From positions 1-64,000 of IMG/VR virus record IMGVR_UViG_3300037042_006682: a DNA stretch of 64,000 bases; one strand, written 5' to 3'. This DNA comes from a virus. The notes beneath the pieces are model-generated. The model saw only the letters and a program-made list of their open reading frames with translations. It made no database searches and was not told the origin of the DNA. A program made the position numbers and the translations under genes. This document shows, piece after piece, positions 2,319 to 37,818 of this stretch. Each line of letters starts with the position of its first letter. The stretch's first letter is position 1.

Positions 2319-2996
2319 TCACGCAGTCTTGATGAGCGCCGCGATGCCCAACCCGATGGGCGCCGCCGCCGCCATCATATCCGACTTGCTGGCCCCCAGC
2401 ACGATCTCCTCGATCGCGTGGGGCTGCAGCTCCAGCTCCATCATGCTCACCTCGGCGCTGTTCGCGTCGAAGTCCGTCCCCGCCTTGTACCGCGTGGGGA
2501 GGCAGTCCCAGAGGACCCAGACGCGCCCCGGCACGAACGAGGCGCCCTCCCAGGTCTCCAGCGGGGCCGGGAGGTCGAGGTTGTAGCCCCCCGCCTCCTG
2601 GAAGGCGTTCACGCCCGTGTAGTGGATGAGGAGCAGGGTGCGCTGCACCATGTCGGAGCCGCGCATCGCCCGCTTCACCCAGTCGTACAGCGTGTCGTCG
2701 TTCATGCGGGCCCCGCGCGTCAGCGAGATCGGCCCGCAGCCGCCCCCCTCGTAGGCCACCGTGGTCCACATGGAGTTGAGCTGCTTGATCTCCCGCGTCT
2801 GCAGGGTGATCTCCGGGGCCGTGATGCTCGCGAACCCGTACATGGGCGAGCCCAACACAAAGAAAGGGAAGGTCGTCGAAGGGATCAGGTCCAGCAGCCA
2901 GAAGCGATGCGTCTGCAACAGGTCGAACATGCGACTCTTGCTGACCGCCTTAAGCGTACCTCGCACATCGCTAGCCGTCTTCCGCACATCGACCAC
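2319..2996 (-). CDS. Tail tube-like protein (gp19 superfamily), second copy
   Basis: The start is a GTG at 2996 preceded by GAGG at 6-base spacing. The 225-residue protein has the tail-tube signature: an N-terminal strand (FWLLDLIPSTTFPFFVLG), a central strand pair (ITAPEITLQTREIKQLNS), then GGGCGPISLTRGARMNDDTLYDWV, which matches the 'ITLxRGxTxDxxLWxW' pattern of T4 gp19-like tubes. The C-terminal 25 residues are hydrophobic (IVLGASKSDMMAAAAPIGLG). It lies directly downstream of the canonical tube gene at 3046. It could be a second tube protein, a tube initiator or a tube-to-baseplate adaptor. Confidence 0.65.
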   Translation of the reverse strand: MVDVRKTASDVRGTLKAVSKSRMFDLLQTHRFWLLDLIPSTTFPFFVLGSPMYGFASITAPEITLQTREIKQLNSMWTTVAYEGGGCGPISLTRGARMNDDTLYDWVKRAMRGSDMVQRTLLLIHYTGVNAFQEAGGYNLDLPAPLETWEGASFVPGRVWVLWDCLPTRYKAGTDFDANSAEVSMMELELQPHAIEEIVLGASKSDMMAAAAPIGLGIAALIKTA

Positions 2997-3045
2997 TGCC
3001 TACCTCATGGCCCGCACCCCCCCCGCCGCGGGGAGACCGCAGGGA

Positions 3046-3564
3046 TCAGACAGCTTCTCCGTTGATAAACAATTGGACCGACTCGACCGCAAGGCCGAAC
3101 TCCGCGATCGACACGTCCCCGCTCGTCGCATCCATGTCCGCCGCGATCTTCACGCGAATCGGCACGCACTCCCGGCAGATGTATGTACGCCACGCGTCAC
3201 TGGCGCCAACCAAGTTCCCTTTGAAGGCCTCTTCTCGTGAGAAGTGCAGGATTTGAAGGTCAGCGCGATACTCACCACCCTTCGCCGCATTCTGGCCCCA
3301 GCGCCAGAAGTCGCTGTCGGACGCCGTGACGCCACGGGTCATGGTGACCTCGCTGAACGTCGGGATGCCGCTGAACTTCTGCGTAAAGATCGTCGTGCCC
3401 TCGCGGTACTCCACGGCGTCCATCGTCAGCTCGGGGATGCTCAGCGTGTTGAAGCCCGCCTGGACCTTGAACGCATCCGGCATCGTCGCATAACCGTCCC
3501 CAGGGACAAGCTGCACATGATAGCGGAAATTCTGATAAAAATCTGTCGAGATTGCCCGTGACAT
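3046..3564 (-). CDS. Tail tube protein (gp19-like)
   Basis: A 172-residue protein with an AAAAGGAGC ribosome binding site upstream of ATG 3564. It shows the full gp19-family order: N-terminal strand with FRYHVQLVPGDGY, AGFNTLSIPELTMDAVEYREG, then FSEVTMTRGVTASDSDFWRW (tube signature, about residues 69-88), then a C-terminal strand set (FGLAVESVQLFINGE). In related phages this protein polymerises into the inner tube through which DNA passes, inside the sheath. It is separated from the sheath gene only by a small gene and a homing endonuclease. Confidence 0.85.
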   Translation of the reverse strand: MSRAISTDFYQNFRYHVQLVPGDGYATMPDAFKVQAGFNTLSIPELTMDAVEYREGTTIFTQKFSGIPTFSEVTMTRGVTASDSDFWRWGQNAAKGGEYRADLQILHFSREEAFKGNLVGASDAWRTYICRECVPIRVKIAADMDATSGDVSIAEFGLAVESVQLFINGEAV

Positions 3565-3594
3565 GTCTGCTCCTTTTCGTGTCTAGCCCGGCCC

Positions 3595-4050
3595 TCAGCC
3601 CGGCAGCGTTTCCGTCCCGATGACGCCCGGCAGCGTCTGCGGCCAGCCCCTGAACGCGCACACCACCACGCGCCCCAGCGCGGTGCAGGCGAGCGAACTC
3701 TCCACCTTGAGCTTCCACCCCGGCGGCACAAAGACCCCGTTGCTGCCGAAGCGCAAGGAGCCCGTCCCCGCCGCGAGGCTCTCGACCTTGTAGACGTTGT
3801 TGGTGCCGTCCACGAGGCTCACCGTGATCGTCGGGGATCCCCCCGTGGGGAGGTTCCACGCCACGTACTCCACCCGCATGCCGACGCGCGCGTGAGCCGG
3901 GAAGAGCCCGCCCTTGGTCCCCGCCGTGAAGACCTGGATGCGCCCGCGCTCGATCGTCTCCTCCGAGCTGACGCCATCCGTGGCCGTCCCATCGATGTGG
4001 CCCGAGGTCGCCACCTCATGGATCTTCATCACCGCAAATACGTCCGTCAT
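3595..4050 (-). CDS. Putative virion protein between sheath and tube (151 aa)
   Basis: A beta-rich protein beginning MTDVFAVMKIHEVATSG with a central segment (VEYVAWNLPTGGSPTITVSL) typical of small jelly-roll or Ig-like virion proteins. No catalytic motif or membrane segment. Its ribosome binding sequence (GAGGGC) lies inside the last codons of the upstream homing endonuclease. Position between sheath and tube suggests a structural or decoration protein. The family is not recognised. Confidence 0.6.
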   Translation of the reverse strand: MTDVFAVMKIHEVATSGHIDGTATDGVSSEETIERGRIQVFTAGTKGGLFPAHARVGMRVEYVAWNLPTGGSPTITVSLVDGTNNVYKVESLAAGTGSLRFGSNGVFVPPGWKLKVESSLACTALGRVVVCAFRGWPQTLPGVIGTETLPG

Positions 4051-4052
4051 GG

Positions 4053-4955
4053 TTATGCCCTCACCGCCGCTGCCGCCATGTCGGCGACCTCGGCCCGTAG
4101 CTCGTCCACCGTGGTCGCCATGGCGTGGTGTTCATACCACCCGGCCTCCAGCCCCAGCGCCGCCATCTCGGCCGGCCCGATCAGCTTGAGCCGCGCGGCC
4201 TCGCGCGGGTACTGCGCCGCAAACGCCTTCACGCGCTCGATCGACACCGCATCCAACCACCCCTTCACCTCGTGGTACTCCTCGATCCCGTCGACCACCA
4301 CCACGAAGTCCGGGGTGTACTGCACGTGCTGCTCACCCGCGAGCTTGAAGCACCGCGCCTCGTACGCCCACTCGTAGCCCTCACGGTCCAGCCAGCCCGC
4401 GTAGAGCTGGTCCCACCGCGAGCCAAAGAACCAGGTGCGCCCCTGCGCGTCGACCGCGGCGGGGAGCCGCTTGCCCGGCGCCCGCGCCTTCGTGCCCGCC
4501 TCCTGAAGGCAGGATCTCACCACCTCACACGACACGCCGTACGCCCGCTCCAGATCCTGGAAGTTCTCGCCCGCGTGGTACCGGCGCACGAGGTCCGCCC
4601 GCTGCGCCACCGAGAGCTTGTGGCGCTTCACGTTCGCCCGCATCGTCACGCCACGTTGATTGAGGTACCGCAAGACGGTCGACTGTCCGATGCCCATCCG
4701 TTGCTGGATCTGCATCAAACTGAGTTCTTCATCAACGTAGAGCCGCGCCATCTCATCAATGGTCTCTTCCGAGGGCGAGTTGTGCGTCCGCGCCTTCCGC
4801 TGATCCAGCACTACACCGTTCCGCTTGAGCACGTTTCCGGCAGTCGCCACGCTTACTGAGAACCGATCCGCGATGGCCGCGACACGCCACCCCGCTGTAT
4901 GCGCCGCGACCATCGCCGCCTCTAATGCCGGTACTACTTTTTTTCCACGTTTCAA
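4053..4955 (-). CDS. Free-standing homing endonuclease, HTH plus PD-(D/E)XK-type nuclease
   Basis: A 300-residue protein. The start is a TTG at 4955 with GGAGG eight bases upstream. Residues 1-150 hold several helix-turn-helix-like repeats (IADRFSVSVATAGNVLKRNG, IQQRMGIGQSTVLRYLNQRG, LERAYGVSCEVVRSCL). Residues 170-240 carry the nuclease: WFFGSRWDQLYAGWL, then YTPDFVVVVDG and YHEVKGWLD, matching the E...PDF...EVKG order of TnsA/EDxHD-like nucleases. It lies between the sheath and virion-protein genes, where such mobile genes insert. Its tail supplies the next gene's ribosome binding site, so insertion left downstream translation intact. Confidence 0.8.
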   Translation of the reverse strand: MKRGKKVVPALEAAMVAAHTAGWRVAAIADRFSVSVATAGNVLKRNGVVLDQRKARTHNSPSEETIDEMARLYVDEELSLMQIQQRMGIGQSTVLRYLNQRGVTMRANVKRHKLSVAQRADLVRRYHAGENFQDLERAYGVSCEVVRSCLQEAGTKARAPGKRLPAAVDAQGRTWFFGSRWDQLYAGWLDREGYEWAYEARCFKLAGEQHVQYTPDFVVVVDGIEEYHEVKGWLDAVSIERVKAFAAQYPREAARLKLIGPAEMAALGLEAGWYEHHAMATTVDELRAEVADMAAAAVRA

Positions 4956-22782: not shown

Positions 22783-24375
22783 TCAGAAGGTCGAGGAGAC
22801 GCTCGGGAGCCCGCTGACGGTCACGACACCGTAGTACTCCGGGCGGAGCAGCTTGGTGGCGAAGCGCGACGCGAAGCCCTTCTTGAACGTGAACGTGTGC
22901 GGATCCTGCCAGGTCGGGGTGACCTGCAGCGGGATGTACGGCGCGAACACGTAGCCCGCGTCGAGGAAGTTCGAGCCGCGGAGCCCGACGAGCACCTTGT
23001 TGTCGTCCAGGAACGGATCCTGGTAGACCGTGAACTTCCGCATCATGGTGCCGACCATCTGGATGCCGTAGTCGCTCGTGAGCGGGCCGTAGCTCGGCGG
23101 CACGATCTGGCTGGCGCCGTTATCGAAGTCGTGGTGCGACGTGAGCTGGCCGAGCAGCGACACGACGGCCGGACTGGCGACGATGAAGTTCGCCGGGGCG
23201 CGCAGTGTGGTCTTGTGGATCTTCGCGGCCACCGCGTCGATCTGGGTCAGCAGGGCGCGGATGCTCTCGATCTCCCCCGGCACCGTCGGGCTGTAGCTGT
23301 AGGTCGCCTGGTGGGCGGCGCCAGCCACGAGGTCCGTGATGACCTTGCGGTCGATTTCCAACGCGATCTCGTTGGAGAGGCCGGCGACCAGCTCGGCCTC
23401 CATGTTGAGGCCGTGGAGGGCCCGCAGGTCGTCCATGGCTTCCTGCGACCACGAGGCGCGCAGCTTGTAGGGCTCGGCCGTCACGGTCGACATGGCCATG
23501 TCCATGCTGATGCCCGGCACCGCGGCGCCGGAGGTCGTGTTCACGAGTTCCCAGTTCACGTAGTACTGGACGTACACAACGTGATTCGCACTGAAGTTGC
23601 AGGGCGCGCCCGCAGCGGTCTGGGGCGTCAGGGCCCAGGCGCCCGTGCTGGTTGTGAACGTCCCCACGGCGTGACCGTGGTTGTCCGTGAGGGTGGTGCT
23701 ACCACCCGTCGGATCGAGCGTGGCGACCTTGTTCTCGGCGCCCGCCTCGACCGTGCGGTAGTAGAGCTTCACCGAGAAGGTGCGCTGGCCGCTGGTGCCC
23801 GGCGTGCGGATCGGCTTCCAGGCCGGGATGCGGCAGTTGCCCGCGCCCTGGTTCAGGGTGCCGGTGGCCGCACCGGTATCCGTGCAGAGCACGTCGTAGT
23901 CCACGAACTCGGAGGCGTAGTTCTTCGCGAAGTTGCGGATGAGGGCGTCGCCCGCGCTCAGCTCGCCGTCGTAGCCCTGGCTGTAGGGGTAGTCCGTGAT
24001 GCCGTTGGCCGGGATCTTCGCGCCCTTGCGGCCCTCGTACTTGTAGTCCCAGGTGAAGACCGCGCCGACCGGGGCCGACAGCGGCTGGACCGACGTGATC
24101 TGGTTGGCGATCAGGTTGGGGAATACCCGGCGCAGAACCGGGAAGATGTACTTGGTGAACGAGCCGACGTTCGTGCTCAGCGCATCCTCGCTGAGGTTCT
24201 TCATGTACGTGGCCTGGTTCTCCAGGAGGATGGCGGCGACGCCCTTGGTGTAGGGGTTGCGCACGCCGTCGGTGCCCTCCAGCAACTGGCCCCACTTGCG
24301 GCTGAGCTGGGAGACGTAGGACTTGTCAGAGATGGTCTTGCCACCATTCTCGGTCAGGATGTTGCGAGCTTCCAT
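22783..24375 (-). CDS. Major capsid protein (T4 gp23-like)
   Basis: 530 residues. The gp23-family signature lies at about residues 75-105 (FPVLRRVFPNLIANQITSVQ, then PLSAPVGAVFTWDYKYEGRK). The C-terminal half carries the P-domain/A-domain pattern (YKLRASWSQEAMDDLRALHG, GLSNEIALEIDRKVITDL, PANFIVASPAVVSLLG). About 100 residues in the middle (around 180-280) form a Gly/Thr-rich insertion, probably an outward domain. It assembles the head lattice around the scaffold and is expected to be trimmed by the protease encoded upstream. A GAGAGGA ribosome binding site is present. Confidence 0.93.
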   Translation of the reverse strand: MEARNILTENGGKTISDKSYVSQLSRKWGQLLEGTDGVRNPYTKGVAAILLENQATYMKNLSEDALSTNVGSFTKYIFPVLRRVFPNLIANQITSVQPLSAPVGAVFTWDYKYEGRKGAKIPANGITDYPYSQGYDGELSAGDALIRNFAKNYASEFVDYDVLCTDTGAATGTLNQGAGNCRIPAWKPIRTPGTSGQRTFSVKLYYRTVEAGAENKVATLDPTGGSTTLTDNHGHAVGTFTTSTGAWALTPQTAAGAPCNFSANHVVYVQYYVNWELVNTTSGAAVPGISMDMAMSTVTAEPYKLRASWSQEAMDDLRALHGLNMEAELVAGLSNEIALEIDRKVITDLVAGAAHQATYSYSPTVPGEIESIRALLTQIDAVAAKIHKTTLRAPANFIVASPAVVSLLGQLTSHHDFDNGASQIVPPSYGPLTSDYGIQMVGTMMRKFTVYQDPFLDDNKVLVGLRGSNFLDAGYVFAPYIPLQVTPTWQDPHTFTFKKGFASRFATKLLRPEYYGVVTVSGLPSVSSTF

Positions 24376-24436: not shown

Positions 24437-27202
24437 TCATGACAGGCCGGAAAGTTGCCGCATCGTTGCGGGGTCCAGGCCGAAGTCGGCCAAGTCGCCC
24501 GCGCCCGCCGTGCCTGCCCCGCGTGGGGCCACGGTCTCCTCCTCCAGCGTCGCCGGACGCCCCTGACCACGCGTCAACTGCGCGCGCATGCGCTCCAGCT
24601 GCCCGTCGCCCATCGTCGTCCGTCCCCGCTGCCGCACCAGCCGATCGACCTCATCTATGCTCGCAACACCCTCTAGCAACCCCATCAACTCGCGCCCGTT
24701 CGTCAACCCTGCGACGCTCTCGGCCTTGTACGCCGCGAGGTCTGCCGCGGCCCGCGCCTCGGCTAGATCCCGCTGTAGCGTGGCGACGCGCTGCTCGGAT
24801 CCCCGTGCGCGCGCCTCCAGGCCCTCGCCGCCTTCAACAGCCAGCTTCAACTGCATCTGCTTCTCGGCCAGTCTCTCGTGCAATTCCTGCGACTCCGCGA
24901 GGAGCCGCTTGCGCTCGCCCTCCCACCGCCGCGTGGCCTCGGCCAGCGGGTTGGGGGCAAGGGGGAGCTTCTCTAGCTGCCGCAGCACGCCACGCACGCG
25001 CGTACGCACCTCGGCCTCGTCTTCTAACAGCCCGGCGTCGGCCAGCAGCTCGCGCGCCATCGCCGCGTGCGGGTGCGTCCCCACGAGGCGCTCCGCGAGC
25101 AGCTGGAAGCCCGCCTCACGGGCCACCCCGCGATAGGCCTCCGCCTGCTCACGCAAGCCCGCGATCTCCGTGCGCTGCGCCTGCAGAGCCGCCGCCACGT
25201 GGTCCTCGGGGACCGCCGGCAGGTAGGGCCGCAGGAGCTGCGCCACCGTGGCCAGCACCGCGCCCGCACCGTCCGCCTCGGCCTCCTCCCGCAGCTCCGC
25301 GCGCACCTCGGCCCGCAGCCCCTGCAGGGCCTCGATGAGCCCGTGCTCGAAGCGCTCGCGCTCCTCCTCACGGGCCGCCGCCACGGCCGCCTCGACGTCC
25401 GTGCTCGCCGCCGCCTGGAGCGCCGCCTGCGCCTTCGCCAGGGCGCGCTCCATCAGCCCCTCCTCTAAAGCCGCCAGGGCCTCGGGGATCTGCGCCTGCA
25501 GGACGTCGGTCGCGTAGGGCGTGTTCACATCCTCATTGAAGATCTCGGGGTACGCCGTCTTCATCGCGGGGTCCGCCACGAAGTCCCAGGTCTTGAGATT
25601 GTAATCCTCGCATACGTCCTCGCCGTCCCCGCTCTCGCTCGGCTTCGTGCTCCCAAAGCCCCGCGAGCTGACGCCGATCTCCACCCCGTGGCGGATCAGC
25701 GCCGCAAGCGTACGGCCGTTCGGCGTATCGAGAATCTCCGCAGCCCCCAACACGAGCCCATCATCAGCGATGGATGCCTCGGTGATTAGGGCCGCCGCGC
25801 GCTGTAACATCGTCTTGCCATCGCTATTGCCCGTCCAGAACGCCTTACCCGCACGCTCCATGTAGAAGTTTCCGTGCATCACCGTCAGGCAGTAAATGTT
25901 GCCTTCGTGGTGGACCTCCTCGATGCCGAGGAAGCGCGGATCCAACCAGATATTCTCCGAGTTACTCAAGTGCAACTGGTACAGCGGCACCTTATTCTCG
26001 GCCTTGATCGTGTGCCCGGCGTACTCATAGTCCTTGTCCGGATCGATCCGCGACAGTGTCCCGGCCCCGCCATAGCGCACCGTGCACTCGTGTAGGTCAC
26101 GAATGAGGCGCTCGGAGACGGAAAAGACGTCCTTGCGCGAATAGGTCGCGTTCGACTCGCGAAGCGCCGTGGCCCACGCCTGTTTGTGCGTGATGCCTTG
26201 CTCCTCTAGCGCCGCGTCCTTCTTGTGCGCATTGACCATGCGCCCGTCGCCGATGCCGAACCAGAAGACCAGCTCACGCAGGGCGTCTGGCCCCAGAGCC
26301 TTGACGCCCTCGGGGATGTACCGTTCATAAGCGTTGCCAAGCCCCTTAAGATAAGTGTGGAAGCGCTTGTCCGTCATACGGAAACCCTTCTCATACTCAT
26401 CCCAGCGCAACTCGCTCGGGAACTTGTCCAGAATCTCGGCCTTCACGTACTCGCGCACCCACGGCGTCGTCAGGCTAATCACCACGCCATAACGACCGTT
26501 GTCCTCCGGCGTGCAGAACCCCTCAGCAAGGTAGATACCCATGAAGGCCGAGAACAAGTTGGCATCCATGCGCACGGGCTGCGTCACGTCGTTGTGGAAG
26601 CGGTTCCCGCCCTCTACGCTCGGGATGACGACCTCGGTCGGGGCCTCGACGCTATCCCACCGCGCCGTCTTCGGCACAGCATACTTTGCATACTTTCCGG
26701 GATCATCGGCAATCTCAGCAATCGTCGCGTAGTGTTCCTTGTCAGGATTCCCCTTGCGGGGCTTCTGCTGCAGCAAGAAACGATGCGCCGGAGTGAAAGT
26801 CGCATCAATCGATCGCCCCTGTACGTGGTAGGCAGGACCGCTATACGGCTGGTCCACGATGCCATCGACCGTCGAGAGCACCGCCTGGCCATCAATACGC
26901 GACCATACGCGATCGCCCACTGCCACATCGCGGAAGGCCTTCCATCCGCTGGCCGTAAGTACGCGGAAGTCATCCGAGGTCAAGCAGGGGTGGTCCAGCT
27001 CACTGAGCACGCGCCGCCGCTTGATGTTCTCCTGAAGCTTCTTGACCTCGCGCTCATAGATCGCACGGGAATAGCGCCGGCCATTCTGCGTCGGGGTGTC
27101 GTAGCGCCCAAACTCGCCGCGGGCCACGAGCTTGCCCGTGCCCTTGTCCTCGGTCAGGGTGAACGTCGTGGTGATCGTCTCAGTCAGCAGCTTGCCGCTC
27201 AT
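24437..27202 (-). CDS. Prohead protease fused to scaffold domain, interrupted by an intein
   Basis: 921 residues. After removal of the intein (residues 73-459) the 534-residue product starts as a gp21-like serine protease: LSELDHP supplies the catalytic His (H71) and VEIGVSSRGFGS (about 507-518) the Ser. The following part is a long Ala/Glu/Arg coiled coil (LAKAQAALQAAASTDVEAAV to VATLQRDLAEARAAADLAAY), typical of a prohead core. Scaffold and protease thus seem to be one protein. It lies directly upstream of the capsid gene and is coupled to a small gene by ATGA. Confidence 0.88.
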   Translation of the reverse strand: MSGKLLTETITTTFTLTEDKGTGKLVARGEFGRYDTPTQNGRRYSRAIYEREVKKLQENIKRRRVLSELDHPCLTSDDFRVLTASGWKAFRDVAVGDRVWSRIDGQAVLSTVDGIVDQPYSGPAYHVQGRSIDATFTPAHRFLLQQKPRKGNPDKEHYATIAEIADDPGKYAKYAVPKTARWDSVEAPTEVVIPSVEGGNRFHNDVTQPVRMDANLFSAFMGIYLAEGFCTPEDNGRYGVVISLTTPWVREYVKAEILDKFPSELRWDEYEKGFRMTDKRFHTYLKGLGNAYERYIPEGVKALGPDALRELVFWFGIGDGRMVNAHKKDAALEEQGITHKQAWATALRESNATYSRKDVFSVSERLIRDLHECTVRYGGAGTLSRIDPDKDYEYAGHTIKAENKVPLYQLHLSNSENIWLDPRFLGIEEVHHEGNIYCLTVMHGNFYMERAGKAFWTGNSDGKTMLQRAAALITEASIADDGLVLGAAEILDTPNGRTLAALIRHGVEIGVSSRGFGSTKPSESGDGEDVCEDYNLKTWDFVADPAMKTAYPEIFNEDVNTPYATDVLQAQIPEALAALEEGLMERALAKAQAALQAAASTDVEAAVAAAREEERERFEHGLIEALQGLRAEVRAELREEAEADGAGAVLATVAQLLRPYLPAVPEDHVAAALQAQRTEIAGLREQAEAYRGVAREAGFQLLAERLVGTHPHAAMARELLADAGLLEDEAEVRTRVRGVLRQLEKLPLAPNPLAEATRRWEGERKRLLAESQELHERLAEKQMQLKLAVEGGEGLEARARGSEQRVATLQRDLAEARAAADLAAYKAESVAGLTNGRELMGLLEGVASIDEVDRLVRQRGRTTMGDGQLERMRAQLTRGQGRPATLEEETVAPRGAGTAGAGDLADFGLDPATMRQLSGLS
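24991..25008. repeat. 18-bp alternating YR repeat, copy 5 (CACGCACGCGCGTACGCA)
   Basis: Inside the scaffold part of the protease gene, where it encodes V-R-T-R-V-R. Alternating pyrimidine-purine but only half-palindromic. Confidence 0.55.
25826..26986 (-). mobile_element. Intein in prohead protease (387 aa, LAGLIDADG type)
   Basis: Residues 73-459 of the protease reading frame. Block A begins CLTSDDFRVLTASGW (Cys1), block B is ATFTPAHRF, and the C-terminal block is YCLTVMHGNFYMERAG ending FWTGN before Ser460. Two dodecapeptide motifs mark a LAGLIDADG endonuclease: FMGIYLAEGFC (about 220-230) and LVFWFGIGDGRM (about 311-322). The site is immediately after the catalytic LSELDHP, so the enzyme should be inactive until splicing. 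The penultimate residue is Gly instead of the usual His. Confidence 0.9.
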
Positions 27203-29331: not shown

Positions 29332-32300
29332 TTAATCCCTCCGCCCATGGCCCGCCGCCCGCCGATCCCGACGCGCCTGCCGAGCCTGTGCCTCTAGCGT
29401 CCGATCGATCCCCTCGACCCGCGCCGCCATGCGCTCCGTGAGCCGCGTGACGCGCCCGTGCTCGCTCAGCAAGCGGTCCAGCCGCGCCTTTACCGCCGCG
29501 TCGCCCTCCAGGGCGCGCCCGCGGGGCTCCTCCGCCTCGGGGACCGCCCCCTCGGCCGCCCCCATCTCCGGCGGGAGCCCGCCCTCGGCGCCCATCGGCC
29601 CCATCACGGTCTCCGGGTACTCCCGGATGATCTCCGCCTGCGTCGCCGCATCGCCCTTCATGGCCCCGCGCTTGTCCTTGCGCGCCTCGTCCGTCACGTA
29701 GATGGCCTCGTCCTGGGAGAAGCCAAACACGTGCTGGAGGATCCAGGGCTGCGGCACCAGCTCGCCAAGGCCCTGCGCGAGCTGCGCCTGCTGCAACCGC
29801 ACCTCCAGCTGCGCCAGCTCGAAGATATACGAGGGCACCGTCATGTGGAGGTCGAAGGCCACCGCATCGGGGTCGATCCCCAGCGCCGCAAGGTGGACCC
29901 GGCAGACCTGCTTCATGCCGTTGCGCACCTCGCGCTGCACCCGCATGGCCGCCCGCGCAAACCGCACGTCATCCCCGCTCGCGATGCGCCCCGTGGTCTC
30001 CTCCATCCCGAGGAGGCGCTTGGGGGTCTGCGCCGCGGCAAGCACCTTGTTGCGGAAGTACTCCAGGATGTCGAGGTCCTGGTTGTCCACACCCTGCAGC
30101 ACGTCGACGCGCGTGCTGTCCTTGCCCCCGCGCGTTGGCAACCACAGATCTTCCAGATTGGAGTTGCACACGAAGATCCCCGCACTGAGTCCGAAGGTGT
30201 GAGCCCCCTCAACGGTCAGCGTGTAGGTATCCTCGCGTTCCGCAATCCGATCTACAGCCACAACCTTGTGGTTATGCGCAATGGCCGACTGCCGGAAAGC
30301 CGTGAAGCTATCAAATCCGTGCTGCCGATAAGCGCGCAGCATTGAATGTCGGCAAACATTGGTCACCGGCTGAAAGCTGGCACCGTTCACCTCGGCCATG
30401 AGCTGTGGCGTCGTCTTAACAAACTGCGCCACCACATCCGCGCTAGCCGTTGGATGCTCCCCTAAGAACAATGCCACTTCAGCCATGAACAATGAGCTGT
30501 ACTGGATCGTGCGAAGTTTGATCACCCGCTGCTTGTTCTGCTCATCTCCCCAATAGGATCGCGCCGCCTCACTGCGAATCGCGTTGTCCTGTTTGTGCTT
30601 CTCCGAGACATTGTATGCACGTAAGTACTGACCACTGTCACGCAGACGATTGCTCTCGCTTACTCCCTTGGAAATACGCGCGCGCACCTCGGGTCTACGC
30701 CCCGCATCGACCATTAACCTCGCCGCATGCTGCTGCTGCTCGCGCATGCGCTGATCAAAGATCGGATCATCGGCACGCTTGCGCTTGATGGCCGTGTTCC
30801 CATCTTCCCCCCGCGCCGCATGCCAGGCTATGTGTTCCCCTGGCGTCAAAGCGCGCAAGGCCCACGGGGCATTGTTCCCACGTCCGAAATCGTGATGGAT
30901 GTGCATGCCCTCTGTCTTGAAACCACACTCACGCGCTACCACGCGATGCGTCACCACATACCTGCGCGTGTCCGGGTCGTAGAGGTGCTCGTACTTCCCG
31001 GACCTGCTATGCCACTCCCGCTCCGCAGGCTTAACCCGCAAGGGCATGAGGGCATCCCCAGGCTTGAGATCTTGCGCCTCGACCCGCTCCCCGCTGCGCC
31101 GGATGCACTTATGGTCCGGCGTCAAGCGTACCGTCTCGCCATTGTCGAGCGTAAGCTTGATCAGCTCGGCGTTTTGTCGCGTCTTCCCCGCCCACGCGAC
31201 CTTGCCCGGCACGAACTTCCCGTTGCGCGCCAGATCTACGGAATAGACCCACTGTTCCTCGCCACGCTCATGTGCCTCGGCCATCGCGACCAATGACCGC
31301 TCCGTCCCATCCAGCAATCGCACGCGCGTGTCCCCAGTGAGGCACTGCACATTATACCGAAAATCTATCTGATTAGTCGTCGGGTTAAAGACCTTCTTGC
31401 GCGAGTACTGCTGCTGGATCTTCTTGACGTGCGCCCAGCCCTCGGCCGGGGGCAGATCGCCCGTGTCGATGTAGAAGGCGTTCCGCGAGGGCCCGCGCGT
31501 GAGCTTTGTCACCAGCGCGGTGTCCTCCATCATCATGAGCCGCTTCCACGCCCAGCGCCCGCCGTCCAGCACGCTCACGCCGTAGACCGCCGTGGTGTCC
31601 TTCTGCCGCAGGCGCCAGTGCACGATCTCCCAGGGCTCGAACACCACGCACCCATTGACGGGCTTACGCTGGTCGCGCGCCACCTTCAGCGCCGCGTCGA
31701 ACTCGCGCTGCGTGAGCTTGAACTGCCCCGTGGGGTCCTGGATGAAGCCGAGGGTCGTCCCGTGGTTGTCCTGCACGCGCCGCATCGTGGGGGGCGCCAG
31801 GAAGTTGATCCCGACGACGCCCTGCTTGCCTACGAGGACCTCCCCGAAGCGATTGCCGTACTTGCCCAGCGTGCGGGCGAGCCCGTGGACGTCGTCCTCC
31901 AGGCGCAGGCGCCGCGTGAGAAGGTCCTCCAGCACGTCGCGCACGAGCTTGTCCTTCGAGGAGGCCCAGATGCTGCGCCCCGTGTTGCTGTCCGGGATCG
32001 AGGCGTCGTCCGCGTAGAGCGTGAAGATCGACGAGGTGAGGTCGTAGTCGTCCATGTCCTCAGCATCGCGGTACCGCTGCATGAGGTCGTCAGAAAGCTG
32101 GAGGGCCTGCGCGACGGGGCTGTTCGCGTCGAAGTTGCCGCCGGTCTGCAGGGCCAGGGCCCCCGTGTAGCCGTCCTTGGCGAGGAGCGGGTTGTCCTGG
32201 TGCTTGCCCGCGATCACGGCGCCCTGGGTCACGCCGCGGGGCGCCGTGGGGCCCTCCTGGGCCGGCCCGCTCCCACGCCCCAGCCAGCCCCGGATCTTGT

Positions 32301-32364
32301 CCCAGAGGCCCCCGCCCTTGTTTTCGGCCCCGGTTGGCTGCTGCTGCTGCTTGGGATCCGCCAT
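29332..32364 (-). CDS. Portal protein (T4 gp20-like), interrupted by an intein
   Basis: 1010 residues; without the intein (341-734) the product is about 616 residues. N-terminal part: DYDLTSSIFTLYADDASIPD, then DDVHGLARTLGKYGNRFGEV and the conserved FEPWEIVHWRLR. After the intein, SNLEDLWLPTRGGKDSTRVD, followed by LQGVDNQDLDILEYFRNKVL, matches the gp20 core region that precedes the clip and stem. The C-terminus is a coiled coil (LLSEHGRVTRLTERMAARVE). The portal forms the 12-fold vertex ring through which the terminase moves DNA. Confidence 0.9.
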   Translation of the reverse strand: MADPKQQQQPTGAENKGGGLWDKIRGWLGRGSGPAQEGPTAPRGVTQGAVIAGKHQDNPLLAKDGYTGALALQTGGNFDANSPVAQALQLSDDLMQRYRDAEDMDDYDLTSSIFTLYADDASIPDSNTGRSIWASSKDKLVRDVLEDLLTRRLRLEDDVHGLARTLGKYGNRFGEVLVGKQGVVGINFLAPPTMRRVQDNHGTTLGFIQDPTGQFKLTQREFDAALKVARDQRKPVNGCVVFEPWEIVHWRLRQKDTTAVYGVSVLDGGRWAWKRLMMMEDTALVTKLTRGPSRNAFYIDTGDLPPAEGWAHVKKIQQQYSRKKVFNPTTNQIDFRYNVQCLTGDTRVRLLDGTERSLVAMAEAHERGEEQWVYSVDLARNGKFVPGKVAWAGKTRQNAELIKLTLDNGETVRLTPDHKCIRRSGERVEAQDLKPGDALMPLRVKPAEREWHSRSGKYEHLYDPDTRRYVVTHRVVARECGFKTEGMHIHHDFGRGNNAPWALRALTPGEHIAWHAARGEDGNTAIKRKRADDPIFDQRMREQQQHAARLMVDAGRRPEVRARISKGVSESNRLRDSGQYLRAYNVSEKHKQDNAIRSEAARSYWGDEQNKQRVIKLRTIQYSSLFMAEVALFLGEHPTASADVVAQFVKTTPQLMAEVNGASFQPVTNVCRHSMLRAYRQHGFDSFTAFRQSAIAHNHKVVAVDRIAEREDTYTLTVEGAHTFGLSAGIFVCNSNLEDLWLPTRGGKDSTRVDVLQGVDNQDLDILEYFRNKVLAAAQTPKRLLGMEETTGRIASGDDVRFARAAMRVQREVRNGMKQVCRVHLAALGIDPDAVAFDLHMTVPSYIFELAQLEVRLQQAQLAQGLGELVPQPWILQHVFGFSQDEAIYVTDEARKDKRGAMKGDAATQAEIIREYPETVMGPMGAEGGLPPEMGAAEGAVPEAEEPRGRALEGDAAVKARLDRLLSEHGRVTRLTERMAARVEGIDRTLEAQARQARRDRRAAGHGRRD
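30163..31344 (-). mobile_element. Intein in portal protein (394 aa, HNH type)
   Basis: Residues 341-734 of the portal frame. Block A CLTGDTRVRLLDGTERS, block B RLTPDHKCIRR, C-terminal blocks DTYTLTVEGAHTFGLSAG and IFVCN before Ser735. The endonuclease part has an HNH signature (GMHIHHDFGRGNNAPWALRA followed by GEHIAWHA, about 487-516), then a helical DNA-binding extension. The penultimate residue is Cys instead of His. The insertion point is just before the conserved SNLEDLWLP segment of the portal. Confidence 0.9.
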
Positions 32365-32382: not shown

Positions 32383-35300
32383 CTAACCCATCAAGAAGGG
32401 CAACATGGGGACCTCGGCCTCGCCCTCGGGGCCCGGCTGCCCGGTCACCCACGCGAAATCCTCGGCCTCGGCGCGCCCCTCGCCTGGTTGTAGCACCCCG
32501 AGGGGCACCCTCGGAACTTTTTTCAAAAGCCCCGCTACAACGCCCGCTACCGCATCGGCACAGTTGTGTACAAAGACCCCCACCGCCAGCGCGAAGTTAT
32601 GATGAATATCTACGGTCATGTCAAAGACCGGCGCCGCCTCCAAGGGCTCCACGTGGGCCACGCAATACTCATGGGGCTGCCCCGGCGGCTGCCAAGACAG
32701 GGGCATCAACAGATCCCCTGGCCTCAAGGCATGCGCTTCACAGAAGGTCCCCGCCCACAGCATAACCTCATGGTCAGGCGTGCAATCAAAGAACAGCCCC
32801 GTCTCCAGCCAAACGCGGAGCATCTCGCACTCCCCCACTAGGTGCACATTGCGCGCCCACGCGGGCACCACGTCCCCATTGGCATCGCACGCATAGCTCC
32901 AAAACTCGCGCCCCACCAGCTCACGTATGGGCACCGCCCTCCCATCCAGCATGGCAATCTTTGTCTCCCCAGAAAGGCAATCCTTCCCACCCGCCACGGG
33001 ATGGTCGATCTTGCCGCGGAGGCGATCGTGCTCTAGGGCCCGCAGCTCCCCGAGCAGGGGCGCGTGGGGGTACAACTCGATGCGCCGCTCGTAGATCGCC
33101 GAGCGCAGGGCCTCGTAGGGCACCATCGTCGCATCCACGCTCAAGATCTCCGAGGCCACGCCGCGCCGCTTCATATGCTGCAGAGTATCGACCGCTTGGT
33201 ATTGATCTGTCGAGAACCCGATCAACACAAACCCGTGTGCCTGGATGTCATAGATCACTGCCCGGATGTCGGCGAGCTGAATCTGCTCCCCCGGCGGGGG
33301 CCGCACCTGCAGCACGAGGTCGATCACGAAGGTCGGCGCGAGGTCCGTGTAGTGATCGCCCTCAGGCGTCCGCCGCACGACCTCCACCCAGCGCTCTATG
33401 TGCCCGCACGCGATCCCCGTGGCATCTCCTGACAGCGAGGTGTCGATGTGGACATAACGCAGGGCCCGCGGATTGCGCAGGGGCGTCCAGGCCTCCTCCG
33501 TAAACCCGCCCGGCAGGCGCCGCACCGAGGCCCTGGCCAGCTGATACCAGTGGATCACGAGGGGCTGCCCATACTGCCACGTCTGGTGATCTGCGGGGTG
33601 GCGCCGCGCCGGGTTCACAGCCTCCTGGATCTTCTCCGTGCGCTGGATGAACACGCTGATGGCCGTCGTGGGGACGCCCGCGATGTCGCGGATCGCATCC
33701 TCCAAGTTGGACTCGAAGTCCACGCGGTACTCCTCGGGAACCGCGATCACGCGCGCCTCGTCGGGGAGGGTCGCAAGGACCACCTCCTCGCCGGGGGGCA
33801 AGATGCGGCTGCGCAGGGAGCTGCCCCCGCAGAGCACCTGGAAGGTGCGCCCGCTGAAGGAGCCCGGCGGCTTGACCTCCCACGTGGCCATCTCCATCGC
33901 GTAGATCGAGGGGTCGTGGTGGGCCGCCGCGAGGCGCCGATCGATGAACGACCCCACCGTGTTCGCGCTCGACACCATCACGATCATGCCGGGGAGGTCC
34001 CCGCTCGCCTGCACGAAGCGCGACTTGATGCGGCGCTCCAGGGAGCGGTACGTGACCTCGGCGTGGTCGTAGTGCGCGAGGCTCTTCTGCTGGCCGTCTG
34101 CCGTGCGGATCTTCTGCTTGGTGGAGCGCACAAAGTTGGTGTTATGCACCACCACCCCATCCGCCACGAAGGTCTGGAACTCCGTCTCGATCGCGTAGGT
34201 CTGCTCGGGGGGCAACGGCGTCACCGCCGTCACGCGGGTCAGGCGGAGGTCGACGGGGAGGTCGGTGACGCGACAACGCTCGGGTCGGACGCCCCAGGCG
34301 GAGTCACGCATACCAGCAATCGCTGCCGCACGCGCCGTTGGGCAAGCCCATCCATGAATGCCTGGTTGATGAATGGTCCATCCCACACGGACGGGATGGT
34401 AGATCCGTTGATAACGATAAGGAACGGCTGCTGTTGCCGTTGGCAGTGCCCCCACATCGCCAACAACCGCGCTCTTGTTCGAGGCGCATAGAACGATGTC
34501 TTGTCCTTCCCCTCGACCACCACCGTCACCCCGTCGGCGCGATCCACCTCGAAGTCCGCCACCGTCAACCGCTGCTGTCCCCCGATCTCGTATGACACAA
34601 ACGGCAGTTGATCCTCGCCCCGGATCGCCACCACCCCCTCCTGCGCCATCAGGGCTTGCACCAGCACCAACTCCGCATCCGACCGACACGGTATCCGCTG
34701 CCCATCCGGCCCCGTCACCCAGTGCGTGTATGTCCGCTTGCGATCTCGGATCGCCTGCGCGTTCCCCGCGGAGATGCGCGTCCGCGACGCCTCCGTGTGC
34801 GGCGTCCCCGGCCTCCCCAAACGCGCCTCGCGTAGACGCCGCCTGTGCGCCTTGCTGAGCGGCTTGCCATAGCGTGGATTGTCCGCCCCCCACATCACGG
34901 GCGGCAATGCCATGCACCCCTCGGCAACCGCCTGTTTGGCCCTCTCTGACATTCGTTCTCGGGCGGCCGGATCCTGCATGAGACGCTTGTGCGCCTCGGA
35001 CATCTTGATCCGCGTCTCCTCGCTCACCGGCTTCTGAATACGCCCTCGCTGTGCCTCGGACATCTTGCGCCGCGTCTCCGCGCTGTGGTGCCATCCCGTC
35101 CGCAGCTTGGCAATCTCGCGCCTCCGCTGCCGCTGCTCCTCGTTCGGCACCCACCCCTTGCAGCCCCGCCGCGCCTCGGACATCTTGCGCCGCGTCTCCG
35201 CGCTGGCCGTCCGCCCCGTGTTGATCTCGCTGAGCTTCTTGCGCGTCTCCTCGGTATGCGTCCGCCCCGTATTCGCCTCGGACATCTTGCGCAGCTCGTC

Positions 35301-37818
35301 TTCGGTATGACGCCGCCTCTTGCCCGCCTCGCTGAGCTTTCCTCGTGTCTCCACTGAGACCTCGCGGCCTGCACACGCCTCGCGCATCTTCTGCTTGGCC
35401 TCCTCCGTATGCTTCTTGCCCTTGCGCGCCTCGCTGATCTTGCGCCGCGCCTCCTCGCTGAACACACGCCCCTTGCCTGCCGCACTCAACTTCTCGCGAT
35501 GTTCGTCCGTCAACGGCTTCCCACGCTTCGCCGCGCTGACCTTCGCCCGCGCTTCTGCACTCAACGTCTGCCCTTTCCTCGGCATCCCGCACCTCAACGA
35601 CCAGTTCGTCCCCGACCCGCACGTCCCGCGCGTAGCGGTACACCAGCCACGCGCCCTCCCGCACCAACACCGGGTGGTCCAGCGAGGGCGCCACCGCGCC
35701 CCCATCATAGGCCAGCTCCACTAAAGGCTGGACCGTCGAGGGGCGGATGGCAAAGCGACCGTACCGCACGCGCTGCGTCGCGTGATCGAGGCACTTTACC
35801 CGCCATCGAGATCGCTCTTCTGGCGCCATTGCCACAAGCGCGCCCACTGACAGATTTGTCTGTAACACGCCGCTTTTACAATGTAAAGCAGAAGTTGATC
35901 GAACACACTCGTCGAGGGCCGCGGCGAAGGCGTTAGTGCCCATGGAGCGCTCGGCGAGGTAGCTCGCGACGATCATCTGCACGTTGTAGGGGAAGTACGT
36001 CGCCTCGGTGTGGACGTCCGGTTTGAAGTGCTCTTGGAAGTACGGGCTGATCGCGAGCTTGTTGTCGATGGCCGACTTGAGGACCTGGCGCGCGAGGACC
36101 AGGTTGCGGCTCACGAGCACGATGCTCATCTCGGAGCCCGGCGACATGCCGTAGGAGGCCTGCGGGTTCACGAGGCAGCTCAGCTCGTAGAGGAGGCGGC
36201 ACATGGCGATCGAGAGGGCGGTCGTGTTGTGTACCACCACGCCATCCGCCACGAAGTTGCGCGGCCCCGGCACCTCCACGTCGTACACGTCCTCCAGCTC
36301 CCCGCTGCCCGGATCGTAGGACACCACCTGGTCCCAGAACAGATCGCCCCACCACGCGCACCACGGCGGCAGCGTGAAGGCCTGCTGCATGCGCACGAAC
36401 TTGGGGCGCCCCTGGTAACGAGACGCGCGCCACGGCGACCAAGCCTCGTTCCGCATCGGCCCCAGCTCCCGCCGTAGGCGTCGCAGCACAGCCGCGTTCA
36501 CCGGCATGATGTCCACGTTGGTGTTGCTGGCGGTCGCCCGCGCCGTTGCGAGGATCGTCGCGCAGCGGTCTTCCTTGCCCAGCACGGGTCCCACCGCCGT
36601 CAGGAAGCGCTCCAGGTTGTCAGCCTCCGTGACGAACAGGCGCCAGGCCGGCTTGGTGCGGAGTTCCCCCTTGTGCGTGTAGGTCTTCTGGCAGGGGTAG
36701 ATCCGCGAGTGTACGCCGAAGCGCAGGAGCAACTGCCCCACGTCGCGCACGAAGCCCTCGCTGGCCAACGTCAGCTCTGCCTTGCACGGCGCCTTGGGCT
36801 CCAAAGAGCCATCCGTCGCCCACAACCGATTGAGGAACAGCCCCAACTGCCGATCGGAAAGGCCAAAGAAGGCGGAAGGCACACGCTTGTCTCGCGATAG
36901 ATGGGCAAGGTCGTATTTATCTCGCACCCACGTCGTCCCGCAAGCACGCCACTCCTCACACTGACGTCCTCTGGTATCACGCGAGGTATCCTGTGCCACG
37001 CTCTGCACCACCAAGCGCATCGCGTCGGAGACCACATGAAAGCGCTCCATCACAGGTCCTGGCTTGTTGCAGAACGTCCAATTACTGCTTGTGCAACTAC
37101 CGTTTGCCAGCATGAACGCCACGAACTCGACCTCGGCGTCCGTGACCTTCAAAGGGTGCTCCGGCGGTGGCAGCGTGCGCGCCGTCCCCACTAGGGATCC
37201 GGGCTGCATCTCGCCCGCGGGCCGATACCCGTCCGGCGTCAGCACGGGGTGGTCCGGCGTGACCTCCACCCGCTTGCCGCTCAGCAGGCGCAGCGTCCCC
37301 ACGGGTTTGCGCCCCGCACATGTAACAATTGCTGGGCGCGTAACGGTACATCCCCTGTCCTGATCATAGGCCGCCACGTGCACCGCCCCCATCTCGTTCA
37401 GGGGCACCTCGCTGATCACACGCTGCTGCCCCAGATGGGGATCGTACAGCGTGCTCCGCGCACCCAGACACTTCCCCCACCCCGTGCTGCCCCCCAGGAT
37501 GACCTCGCGGTAGTGCGCGCCCGGCTCGAAGATCTCGATGAGCTTGCGCCGCAGGACCGGGTAGAGCGTCTGGCAGGACTCCCCCAGGTAGTAGGGATCA
37601 TCAATGAAGGTCGCCATGTCGACGGGGGCCACGCGGTACCGCTTCGCGTAGCACTCGTTGACGATCTCGGGGCGCCCCGCCTGCTCCTCATACAGGAGGG
37701 CCTCGAAGAGGCGCCGCTCATCGGGGGGCAGCGCCGCGAAGCGCCGCAGGAGGGCCGCCCGGCGCTCGGCCGGCGTGCGAACCGTCCGCGCGCGCCCCTC
37801 GGGGGTGCGGACGATCAT
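32383..37818 (-). CDS. Large terminase subunit (gp17-like) interrupted by three inteins
   Basis: 1811 residues, reduced to about 668 after removal of three inteins (117-531, 638-1226, 1614-1752). The spliced enzyme shows Walker A GGSTGWGK+TTALS, a Walker B region AFAAALDE+TNFV, the nuclease motif YVHIDTSLSGDATGIA (about 1455-1470), a middle motif GFSTDQYQAVDTLQ, and nuclease motif III GGKD+CADAVAG. The ATPase pumps DNA into the head and the RNase H-fold nuclease cuts concatemers. It is coupled to the small-subunit candidate by ATGA. The three junctions all fall at catalytic motifs. Confidence 0.93.
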   Translation of the reverse strand: MIVRTPEGRARTVRTPAERRAALLRRFAALPPDERRLFEALLYEEQAGRPEIVNECYAKRYRVAPVDMATFIDDPYYLGESCQTLYPVLRRKLIEIFEPGAHYREVILGGSTGWGKCLGARSTLYDPHLGQQRVISEVPLNEMGAVHVAAYDQDRGCTVTRPAIVTCAGRKPVGTLRLLSGKRVEVTPDHPVLTPDGYRPAGEMQPGSLVGTARTLPPPEHPLKVTDAEVEFVAFMLANGSCTSSNWTFCNKPGPVMERFHVVSDAMRLVVQSVAQDTSRDTRGRQCEEWRACGTTWVRDKYDLAHLSRDKRVPSAFFGLSDRQLGLFLNRLWATDGSLEPKAPCKAELTLASEGFVRDVGQLLLRFGVHSRIYPCQKTYTHKGELRTKPAWRLFVTEADNLERFLTAVGPVLGKEDRCATILATARATASNTNVDIMPVNAAVLRRLRRELGPMRNEAWSPWRASRYQGRPKFVRMQQAFTLPPWCAWWGDLFWDQVVSYDPGSGELEDVYDVEVPGPRNFVADGVVVHNTTALSIAMCRLLYELSCLVNPQASYGMSPGSEMSIVLVSRNLVLARQVLKSAIDNKLAISPYFQEHFKPDVHTEATYFPYNVQMIVASYLAERSMGTNAFAAALDECVRSTSALHCKSGVLQTNLSVGALVAMAPEERSRWRVKCLDHATQRVRYGRFAIRPSTVQPLVELAYDGGAVAPSLDHPVLVREGAWLVYRYARDVRVGDELVVEVRDAEERADVECRSAGEGQRGEAWEAVDGRTSREVECGRQGACVQRGGAAQDQRGAQGQEAYGGGQAEDARGVCRPRGLSGDTRKAQRGGQEAASYRRRAAQDVRGEYGADAYRGDAQEAQRDQHGADGQRGDAAQDVRGAAGLQGVGAERGAAAAEARDCQAADGMAPQRGDAAQDVRGTARAYSEAGERGDADQDVRGAQASHAGSGRPRTNVREGQTGGCRGVHGIAARDVGGGQSTLWQAAQQGAQAASTRGAFGEAGDAAHGGVADAHLRGERAGDPRSQADIHALGDGAGWAADTVSVGCGVGAGASPDGAGGGGGDPGRGSTAVCVIRDRGTAAVDGGGLRGGSRRRGDGGGRGEGQDIVLCASNKSAVVGDVGALPTATAAVPYRYQRIYHPVRVGWTIHQPGIHGWACPTARAAAIAGMRDSAWGVRPERCRVTDLPVDLRLTRVTAVTPLPPEQTYAIETEFQTFVADGVVVHNTNFVRSTKQKIRTADGQQKSLAHYDHAEVTYRSLERRIKSRFVQASGDLPGMIVMVSSANTVGSFIDRRLAAAHHDPSIYAMEMATWEVKPPGSFSGRTFQVLCGGSSLRSRILPPGEEVVLATLPDEARVIAVPEEYRVDFESNLEDAIRDIAGVPTTAISVFIQRTEKIQEAVNPARRHPADHQTWQYGQPLVIHWYQLARASVRRLPGGFTEEAWTPLRNPRALRYVHIDTSLSGDATGIACGHIERWVEVVRRTPEGDHYTDLAPTFVIDLVLQVRPPPGEQIQLADIRAVIYDIQAHGFVLIGFSTDQYQAVDTLQHMKRRGVASEILSVDATMVPYEALRSAIYERRIELYPHAPLLGELRALEHDRLRGKIDHPVAGGKDCLSGETKIAMLDGRAVPIRELVGREFWSYACDANGDVVPAWARNVHLVGECEMLRVWLETGLFFDCTPDHEVMLWAGTFCEAHALRPGDLLMPLSWQPPGQPHEYCVAHVEPLEAAPVFDMTVDIHHNFALAVGVFVHNCADAVAGVVAGLLKKVPRVPLGVLQPGEGRAEAEDFAWVTGQPGPEGEAEVPMLPFLMG
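32563..32979 (-). mobile_element. Terminase intein 3, mini-intein without endonuclease (139 aa)
   Basis: Residues 1614-1752. It begins CLSGETKIAMLDGRAVPIRE, has block B FFDCTPDHEVML, and ends AVGVFVHN before Cys1753. The length matches a splicing domain alone. The site is inside nuclease motif III (GGKD+CADAVAG). It has all canonical terminal residues (Cys1, His-Asn, +1 Cys). Confidence 0.92.
34141..35907 (-). mobile_element. Terminase intein 2 (589 aa), hosts an out-of-frame homing endonuclease gene
   Basis: Residues 638-1226. The splicing blocks are in the terminase frame: Cys638 in ALDE+CVRSTSALHC, block B SLDHPVLVREGAW (about 712-724), and C-terminal blocks TYAIETEFQTFVADG and VVVHN before Thr1227. 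Between about residues 742 and 1190 the terminase frame reads as low-complexity sequence (RGDAAQDVRG-type repeats). This is the shadow of a homing endonuclease encoded one base out of register. The frame contains no stop over this whole stretch. Confidence 0.88.
34239..35585 (-). CDS. Homing endonuclease nested out of frame inside terminase intein 2
   Basis: 448 residues from ATG 35585, with GAGG 6 bases upstream. Residues 1-190 contain about ten 17-residue NUMOD3-type repeats (SEEARRKISEARKGK, TEETRKKLSEINTGR, SAETRRKMSEARRGC), known DNA-binding modules of homing endonucleases. Residues about 300-380 resemble a PD-(D/E)XK nuclease (RSDAELVLVQALMAQEG, then VADFEVDRADGVTVVVEGKD). The C-terminal 40 residues overlap the intein C-terminal region and look less constrained. 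It would be translated from the same mRNA as the terminase but in another frame. Confidence 0.8.
   Translation of the reverse strand: MPRKGQTLSAEARAKVSAAKRGKPLTDEHREKLSAAGKGRVFSEEARRKISEARKGKKHTEEAKQKMREACAGREVSVETRGKLSEAGKRRRHTEDELRKMSEANTGRTHTEETRKKLSEINTGRTASAETRRKMSEARRGCKGWVPNEEQRQRRREIAKLRTGWHHSAETRRKMSEAQRGRIQKPVSEETRIKMSEAHKRLMQDPAARERMSERAKQAVAEGCMALPPVMWGADNPRYGKPLSKAHRRRLREARLGRPGTPHTEASRTRISAGNAQAIRDRKRTYTHWVTGPDGQRIPCRSDAELVLVQALMAQEGVVAIRGEDQLPFVSYEIGGQQRLTVADFEVDRADGVTVVVEGKDKTSFYAPRTRARLLAMWGHCQRQQQPFLIVINGSTIPSVWDGPFINQAFMDGLAQRRVRQRLLVCVTPPGASDPSVVASPTSPSTSA
36226..37470 (-). mobile_element. Terminase intein 1 in the Walker A motif (415 aa, LAGLIDADG type)
   Basis: Residues 117-531. 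Begins CLGARSTLYDPHLGQQ, block B RVEVTPDHPVLTPDG, dodecapeptides FVAFMLANGSC (about 232-242) and FLNRLWATDGSLE (about 328-340), and ends PRNFVADGVVVHN before Thr532. The site splits the P-loop as GSTGWGK+TTALS, so ATP binding requires splicing. The terminal motif FVADGVVVHN is almost identical to that of intein 2, suggesting common origin or gene conversion of the ends. Confidence 0.93.

Follow-up and report, generated by a model that had tools for sequence, protein, structure and literature searches.

Among described inteins, that of the mycobacteriophage Bethlehem gp51 RDF can be likened by description, not by sequence, to the element analysed here. It is likewise a phage class 1 intein with an endonuclease and a natural penultimate Gly, and it sits in a different host gene (PMC5050341). 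Its splicing has been measured. As reported there, the natural precursor was completely spliced at time zero, and exchange of the Gly for His led to more than 5 h being required for about half to splice (PMC5050341). According to the same source, other inteins respond differently to penultimate changes, and an upstream His in block F can take over. Homologous inteins are found in the same protease of Nitratidesulfovibrio phage SRB7757 / Desulfovibrio phage 7757 (PV062637, OR395405, intein unannotated; 33% identity, end TGN/S, with the slash marking the splice junction) and of the huge phage LR756508 (29% identity, end WTGN/S). In both, the insertion is located one codon later than in our case, after HPS and HPD, respectively. 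The DNA methylase insert of mycobacteriophage ShiLan is homologous over its full length (24.6% identity, end ITGN/S) and belongs to a different host gene. On the level of the fold, the archaeal VMA inteins TliVMA and PhoVMA and PI-SceI share the combination of Hint and LAGLIDADG domains over residues 1-387 (Z 24.1, 21.4 and 19.5 to 20.4, respectively) at 11 to 15% identity, again in a different host gene. In the open PMC literature, as far as its accessible text extends, we found no published description of a gp21 intein, which is not proof of absence. The accessible parts of the Felix O1, CBB, PaBG and IBB_35 papers report none, and the CampHawk paper, considered as such a report, places its intein in the UvrD helicase.

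The window analysed here is a stretch of 64,000 nucleotides that forms part of a virus record of 161,208 bases. The interrupted gene and all inteins described below lie on its minus strand. The open reading frame 24437-27202 encodes a precursor of 921 aa in a single open frame that runs through the insert. Its extein scores 41.3 bits against Pfam Peptidase_S77 (gp21), above the 27-bit cut-off, and matches phrog_207 'head maturation protease' with E 8.5e-34, which identifies the gene as that of a gp21-like prohead protease. It is surrounded by a T4-like head cassette with a Gp23-like capsid protein (22783-24375), a portal (29332-32364) and a terminase-like protein (32383-37818). The intein comprises 387 residues, Cys1 to Asn387 (precursor residues 73-459; 25826..26986), and separates an N-extein of 72 residues ending in LSELDHP (26987..27202) from a C-extein that includes the catalytic Ser motif GVSSRG (24437..25825). 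The junctions read RRRVLSELDHP/CLTSDDF and KAFWTGN/SDGKTML. They are fixed independently, as 34 of 37 loci are intein-free and read through the site without an insert; intein-bearing relatives at the same site show 81, 58 and 57% intein identity. The G+C content is 0.60 for the intein compared to 0.70 for the extein.

The sequence-only reading had placed the intein at 25826-26986, directly after the catalytic His motif of the protease, with a C-terminal Gly-Asn instead of His-Asn. The open frame together with intein-free and intein-bearing relatives confirms these coordinates to the base and the junction with them, the alignment to the T4 protease confirms the location, and the sequence indeed ends in Thr-Gly-Asn before Ser+1. 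A chance or frameshift artefact is ruled out by the open frame, the family conservation and the exact junction in the 34 intein-free loci. T4 gp21 (solved chain 5jbl) is the same kind of host protease without an intein, distant from the protease of the window. Aligned with the intein-free relative L015 (E 7e-7), it shows Ala opposite the His of the HP motif and GVASRG opposite GVSSRG, so that both catalytic motifs align. The Ala in 5jbl would be a mutation that inactivates the catalytic His. By this alignment, the catalytic residues in the precursor are His71 (codon 26990..26992) and Ser513 (25664-25666, within the C-extein); for the gp21 protease family, His, Ser and Asp are named as catalytic (PMC5694885). 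Because His and Ser are located on different exteins, a working protease active site should need splicing, in line with the earlier claim that head maturation depends on it.

An IMG/VR scan with the intein alignment gave 148 relatives, of which the best 80 were taken (79 loci, 76 of them within gp21 genes). Adding the window and two phage records (L007, L008) to the 76 loci gives a family set of 79 rows with 65 distinct inteins. The rows are mutually related, so that a count of 65/65 does not represent 65 independent events. All 65 inteins start with Cys and end in Gly-Asn (TGN in 49, SGN in 16), followed by Ser (54) or Cys (11) at the +1 position. In the window, these residues are Cys1 (26984..26986), the first nucleophile, the dipeptide Gly386-Asn387 (25826..25831) and the acceptor nucleophile Ser+1 in the C-extein (25823..25825). 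Block B is Thr-Pro-Ala-His (26783..26794) with Thr65 and His68 each conserved in 65/65. Block F contains Cys366 (25889..25891; Cys in 64/65), at position F:4 if compared with the block scheme in the accessible part of a review, and position G:5 is Thr in 49 and Ser in 16 inteins. The endonuclease acids are Glu155 (26522-26524; Glu in 60, Asp in 5) and Asp247 (26246-26248; Asp in 65/65). Splice-junction residues are all conserved down to about 30% identity. For the window and L002, dN/dS is 0.13 overall, 0.08 in the Hint part and 0.12 in the endonuclease. It ranges from 0.05 to 0.27 over 15 chosen pairs of 2080 possible, with synonymous sites near saturation in some. Judged by these ratios, selection on the intein is purifying.

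The three loci outside gp21 that were dropped from the family, L104 and L108 (both 2947-4089) and L113 (2944-4122), are stand-alone ORFs of 381 and 393 aa, respectively, that are homologous to the intein. They have neither exteins nor a terminal Asn (ends FWSG-SIN and FWS-TI) and may be endonucleases that became free and still carry a relic of the Hint domain.

The AlphaFold2 model, based on 63 aligned sequences, has a mean pLDDT of 92.1 and a pTM of 0.91. Its best match among solved folds is the TliVMA intein including its endonuclease (model residues 1-387, 308 residues, Z 24.1, rmsd 4.9). Next follow Hint domains, with the class 3 AceL NrdHF intein (144 residues, Z 18.1, rmsd 2.1) being the closest of the endonuclease-free solved inteins, compared to Z 16.2 for the next one. 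The match to I-DmoI spans model residues 139-345 (Z 13.5) and supports a LAGLIDADG (DOD) homing endonuclease domain at residues ~139-345 (25952..26572), with two helices carrying the conserved acids at 155 and 247. Against Pfam Intein_splicing (PF14890) the score is 11.8 bits (E 0.21), below the cut-off of 35.8. The intein is divergent by sequence and clear by its predicted fold. Cys1, block B Thr and His, the terminal Asn, the +1 Ser or Cys and the predicted Hint fold are as in class 1 inteins. The His before the final Asn, which is usual in class 1 and not obligatory, is absent from all 65. Assignment to class 3 is ruled out by the invariant Cys1 and by the absent Trp of the class 3 Trp-Cys-Thr motif, since position B:12 is Trp in 0/65 inteins (Phe in 54), even with F:4 Cys and G:5 Thr present at the frequencies given above. 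We read the element as a mobile class 1 intein that is probably active.

Closely similar phages carry alleles with the intein (L001, L002, L004) and with an uninterrupted protease (L014, L015, L016). In the comparison of L004 (with) and L014 (without), consecutive segments of 30 nt downstream of the site share 21, 30, 30 and 30 identical nucleotides, and upstream segments share 23 next to the site, then 30 and 30. Divergence between intein-bearing and intein-free alleles thus peaks close to the insertion site, at a distance of up to ~30 nt. L014 and L016, both intein-free, have 12/30 nt identical in the same 30 nt stretch. The flank of the site is therefore variable anyway, and the peak of divergence is not unique to intein carriage. 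The +1 position is Asp or Glu instead of Ser in the nearest intein-free alleles. Of the 23 intein-free loci that were scored (23 of 34, leaving out 8 near-copies and 3 distant ones), 19 have Ala, Asp, Glu or Gln there. The flank pattern is consistent with a short tract being exchanged along with the intein, the element bringing its own +1 nucleophile; the pattern looks the same for either direction and for gain or loss. In an archaeal case, a wrong +1 residue was described to stop splicing and not endonuclease recognition (PMC10643990).

Counting that of the protease, the region between 25826 and 37470 holds five inteins, spread over three genes of the head (protease, portal and terminase-like); their penultimate residues are G, C, H, H and H. 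The portal intein (30163-31344) ends VCN/S. In the terminase gene, the first intein (36226-37470) follows GSTGWGK and ends VHN/T, the second (34141-35907) follows ALDE and ends VHN/T, and the third (32563-32979) follows GGKD and ends VHN/C. The portal intein is matched in G001 and G008 and replaced by a divergent insert in G010. The portal is uninterrupted in G002, G004, G005, G006, G007 and G009, and G003 has no portal match. For the terminase, G001, G003 and G004 have no match and the distant G007, G009 and G010 were not placed. Among the others, the first site is empty in G005, G006 and G008 and holds a copy without the endonuclease part in G002. The second site carries an intein in G002 and G006 and is empty in G005 and G008. 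At the third, G002 and G006 have no insert, G005 has a longer one and G008 a short one. Such patchy distribution of full, endonuclease-less and empty sites is, as judged from these comparisons, the pattern of mobile elements, unlike that of a required timer.

The second terminase intein (589 aa) contains an insert rich in Gly, Ala, Arg and Gln, which is the out-of-frame translation of a homing-endonuclease gene. A nested ORF (34239-35708, 489 aa), on the same strand and in a different frame, holds 8 NUMOD3 motifs (E 3.6e-29) and matches the phrog_314 homing endonuclease (E 3.6e-29). All 3/3 copies (window, L142 and L143) keep the two frames open. Conservation is higher in the nested frame, with 354/479, 320/471 and 389/472 identical residues compared to 227/358, 209/358 and 290/368 for the intein frame, and changes between the copies favour third codon positions of the nested frame. 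A hidden HNH endonuclease within a phage methylase insert has reportedly been described in one study.

We consider it about 85% probable that the element is a mobile intein with a LAGLIDADG homing endonuclease, inserted in the catalytic-His motif of a gp21-like protease, and that it is an ordinary class 1 intein and not a timer. The Hint domain most likely excises itself after translation by the class 1 route. Cys1 would attack the Pro-Cys bond, Ser+1 would take over the N-extein and Asn387 would cyclise, joining the protease His and Ser on one chain. Most likely, the endonuclease cuts gp21 alleles that lack the intein, and the element would be copied across with a short flanking tract that supplies the Ser+1 needed for splicing. 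Splicing and nuclease activity, the direction of transfer and the order of the steps are what we infer. We propose that the conserved DNA and the lethality of lost splicing account for the location of the intein beside the catalytic His, rather than any use of the intein as a timer by the phage. We count three points against this explanation: the Pro at the -1 position, the score below the Pfam Intein_splicing cut-off and the flank divergence between the two intein-free alleles L014 and L016.

As a rule, a Pro at -1 is regarded as unfavourable for the first acyl shift. The literature on this point, including the accessible text of PMC10189870, yielded nothing useful. In the family, the -1 residue differs between two adjacent insertion sites. 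Site a, directly after HP (HP/C), is occupied in 19/65 and has Pro at -1 in 19/19. Site b, one residue later (HPx/C), is occupied in 46/65, and its -1 residue is Glu (19), Asp (15), Ser (6), Pro (2), Gln (2), Thr (1) or Ala (1). The register of the C-extein compared with intein-free proteases fits for 19/19 inteins at site a and for 45/46 at site b (1 misfit), so that the spliced protease would have unchanged length at either site. On a quick intein tree with several long branches, the two sites require three changes compared to a shuffled mean of 16.6. This tree pairs L059, from site a, with L060, from site b, as sisters.

An alternative that would bypass the -1 Pro is a mixed-class mechanism, in which a triad of Cys366, His68 and Thr385 performs part or all of the first step and Cys1 acts as second nucleophile. 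We regard it as unlikely. The class 3 triad is Cys-His-Thr at the same block F, block B and block G places (PMC7664689), the three residues are conserved in our family to the extent given above, and the closest endonuclease-free fold is that of a class 3 intein. However, Cys1 is invariant here, unlike in class 3, and B:12 Trp is missing throughout. F:4 Cys is, according to the accessible part of a review, the second commonest residue at this position among inteins at large, and the block G Thr is present in class 1 gp41-1 as well (PMC7664689). Extended to the clade, this alternative would combine Asn cyclisation without either helper His, a second nucleophilic centre of Cys366, His68 and Thr or Ser385 that enables splicing after -1 Pro, and moves of the site by one codon with the spliced length kept. 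In this extended form we likewise hold it to be doubtful.

The sequence-only reading had suggested that Gly in place of the penultimate His slows Asn cyclisation, so that slow release of the protease would time head maturation. The protease is truly interrupted at its active site, and, according to the accessible part of a review, the residues that usually assist include the penultimate His. Nevertheless, we consider such a built-in delay very improbable. Comparison of the penultimate position in relatives, which had been proposed along with the delay, gives Gly in 65/65. The Gly is encoded by GGA (31), GGT (25), GGG (5) and GGC (4), and with four codons in use it is maintained at the protein level. 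The Gly-Asn end is found outside gp21 too, in the ShiLan methylase insert (L009) and the Lak-A1 insert, and in 8/8 cellular-genome relatives that reach residue 387 (10 loci, of which L168 and L170 fall short). These relatives (L162-L171) are inteins that interrupt other genes in genomes of archaea and bacteria. The 65/65 and 8/8 counts rule out that the penultimate His was lost recently or in this intein only. In the one measured comparison considered here, the Bethlehem gp51 intein is fast with its natural Gly and slowed by His (PMC5050341), which speaks against slow splicing from Gly-Asn. As close relatives lack the intein, a timer is not required, and T4 gp21 has an activation switch of its own, since in its pre-active form the N-terminus blocks the active centre and activation occurs on prohead completion (PMC9958956).

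The same reading had offered a variant splicing mechanism as the other option. His is found in the HNF-register column of block F in 3/65 inteins and one place before in 13/65, including the window intein with His371, which may act as a local helper. In 19/65 inteins the last 26 residues contain no His at all, and besides His68 no His column of the family alignment is conserved in more than 37/65. With both helper His often missing, the gp21 intein clade must, as far as the alignment tells, either have another way of assisting Asn cyclisation or dispense with assistance. Alternative assistance is therefore possible for most members. Read from the family alignment, the penultimate Gly is a long-standing trait of the clade, not a recent defect and not a sign of slow removal.

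Least probable of all is an intein that no longer splices or only cleaves, leaving the protease as two fragments or otherwise supplied: the -1 Pro and the penultimate Gly could hinder splicing on paper, but the junction residues and low dN/dS are retained, the catalytic His belongs to one extein and the Ser to the other, and the +1 residue is Ser or Cys in 65/65 inteins as opposed to the residues of most intein-free loci.

For the mobile class 1 intein that we favour, we conclude that a missing penultimate His alone does not mean slow splicing, as Gly is a clade-wide constant here. To the recurrent intein sites, our analysis adds the catalytic-His motif of the gp21 protease. Intein-bearing and intein-free natural alleles, together with two sites at adjacent codons, provide material for studying homing, the choice of the +1 residue and Asn cyclisation free of helper His.
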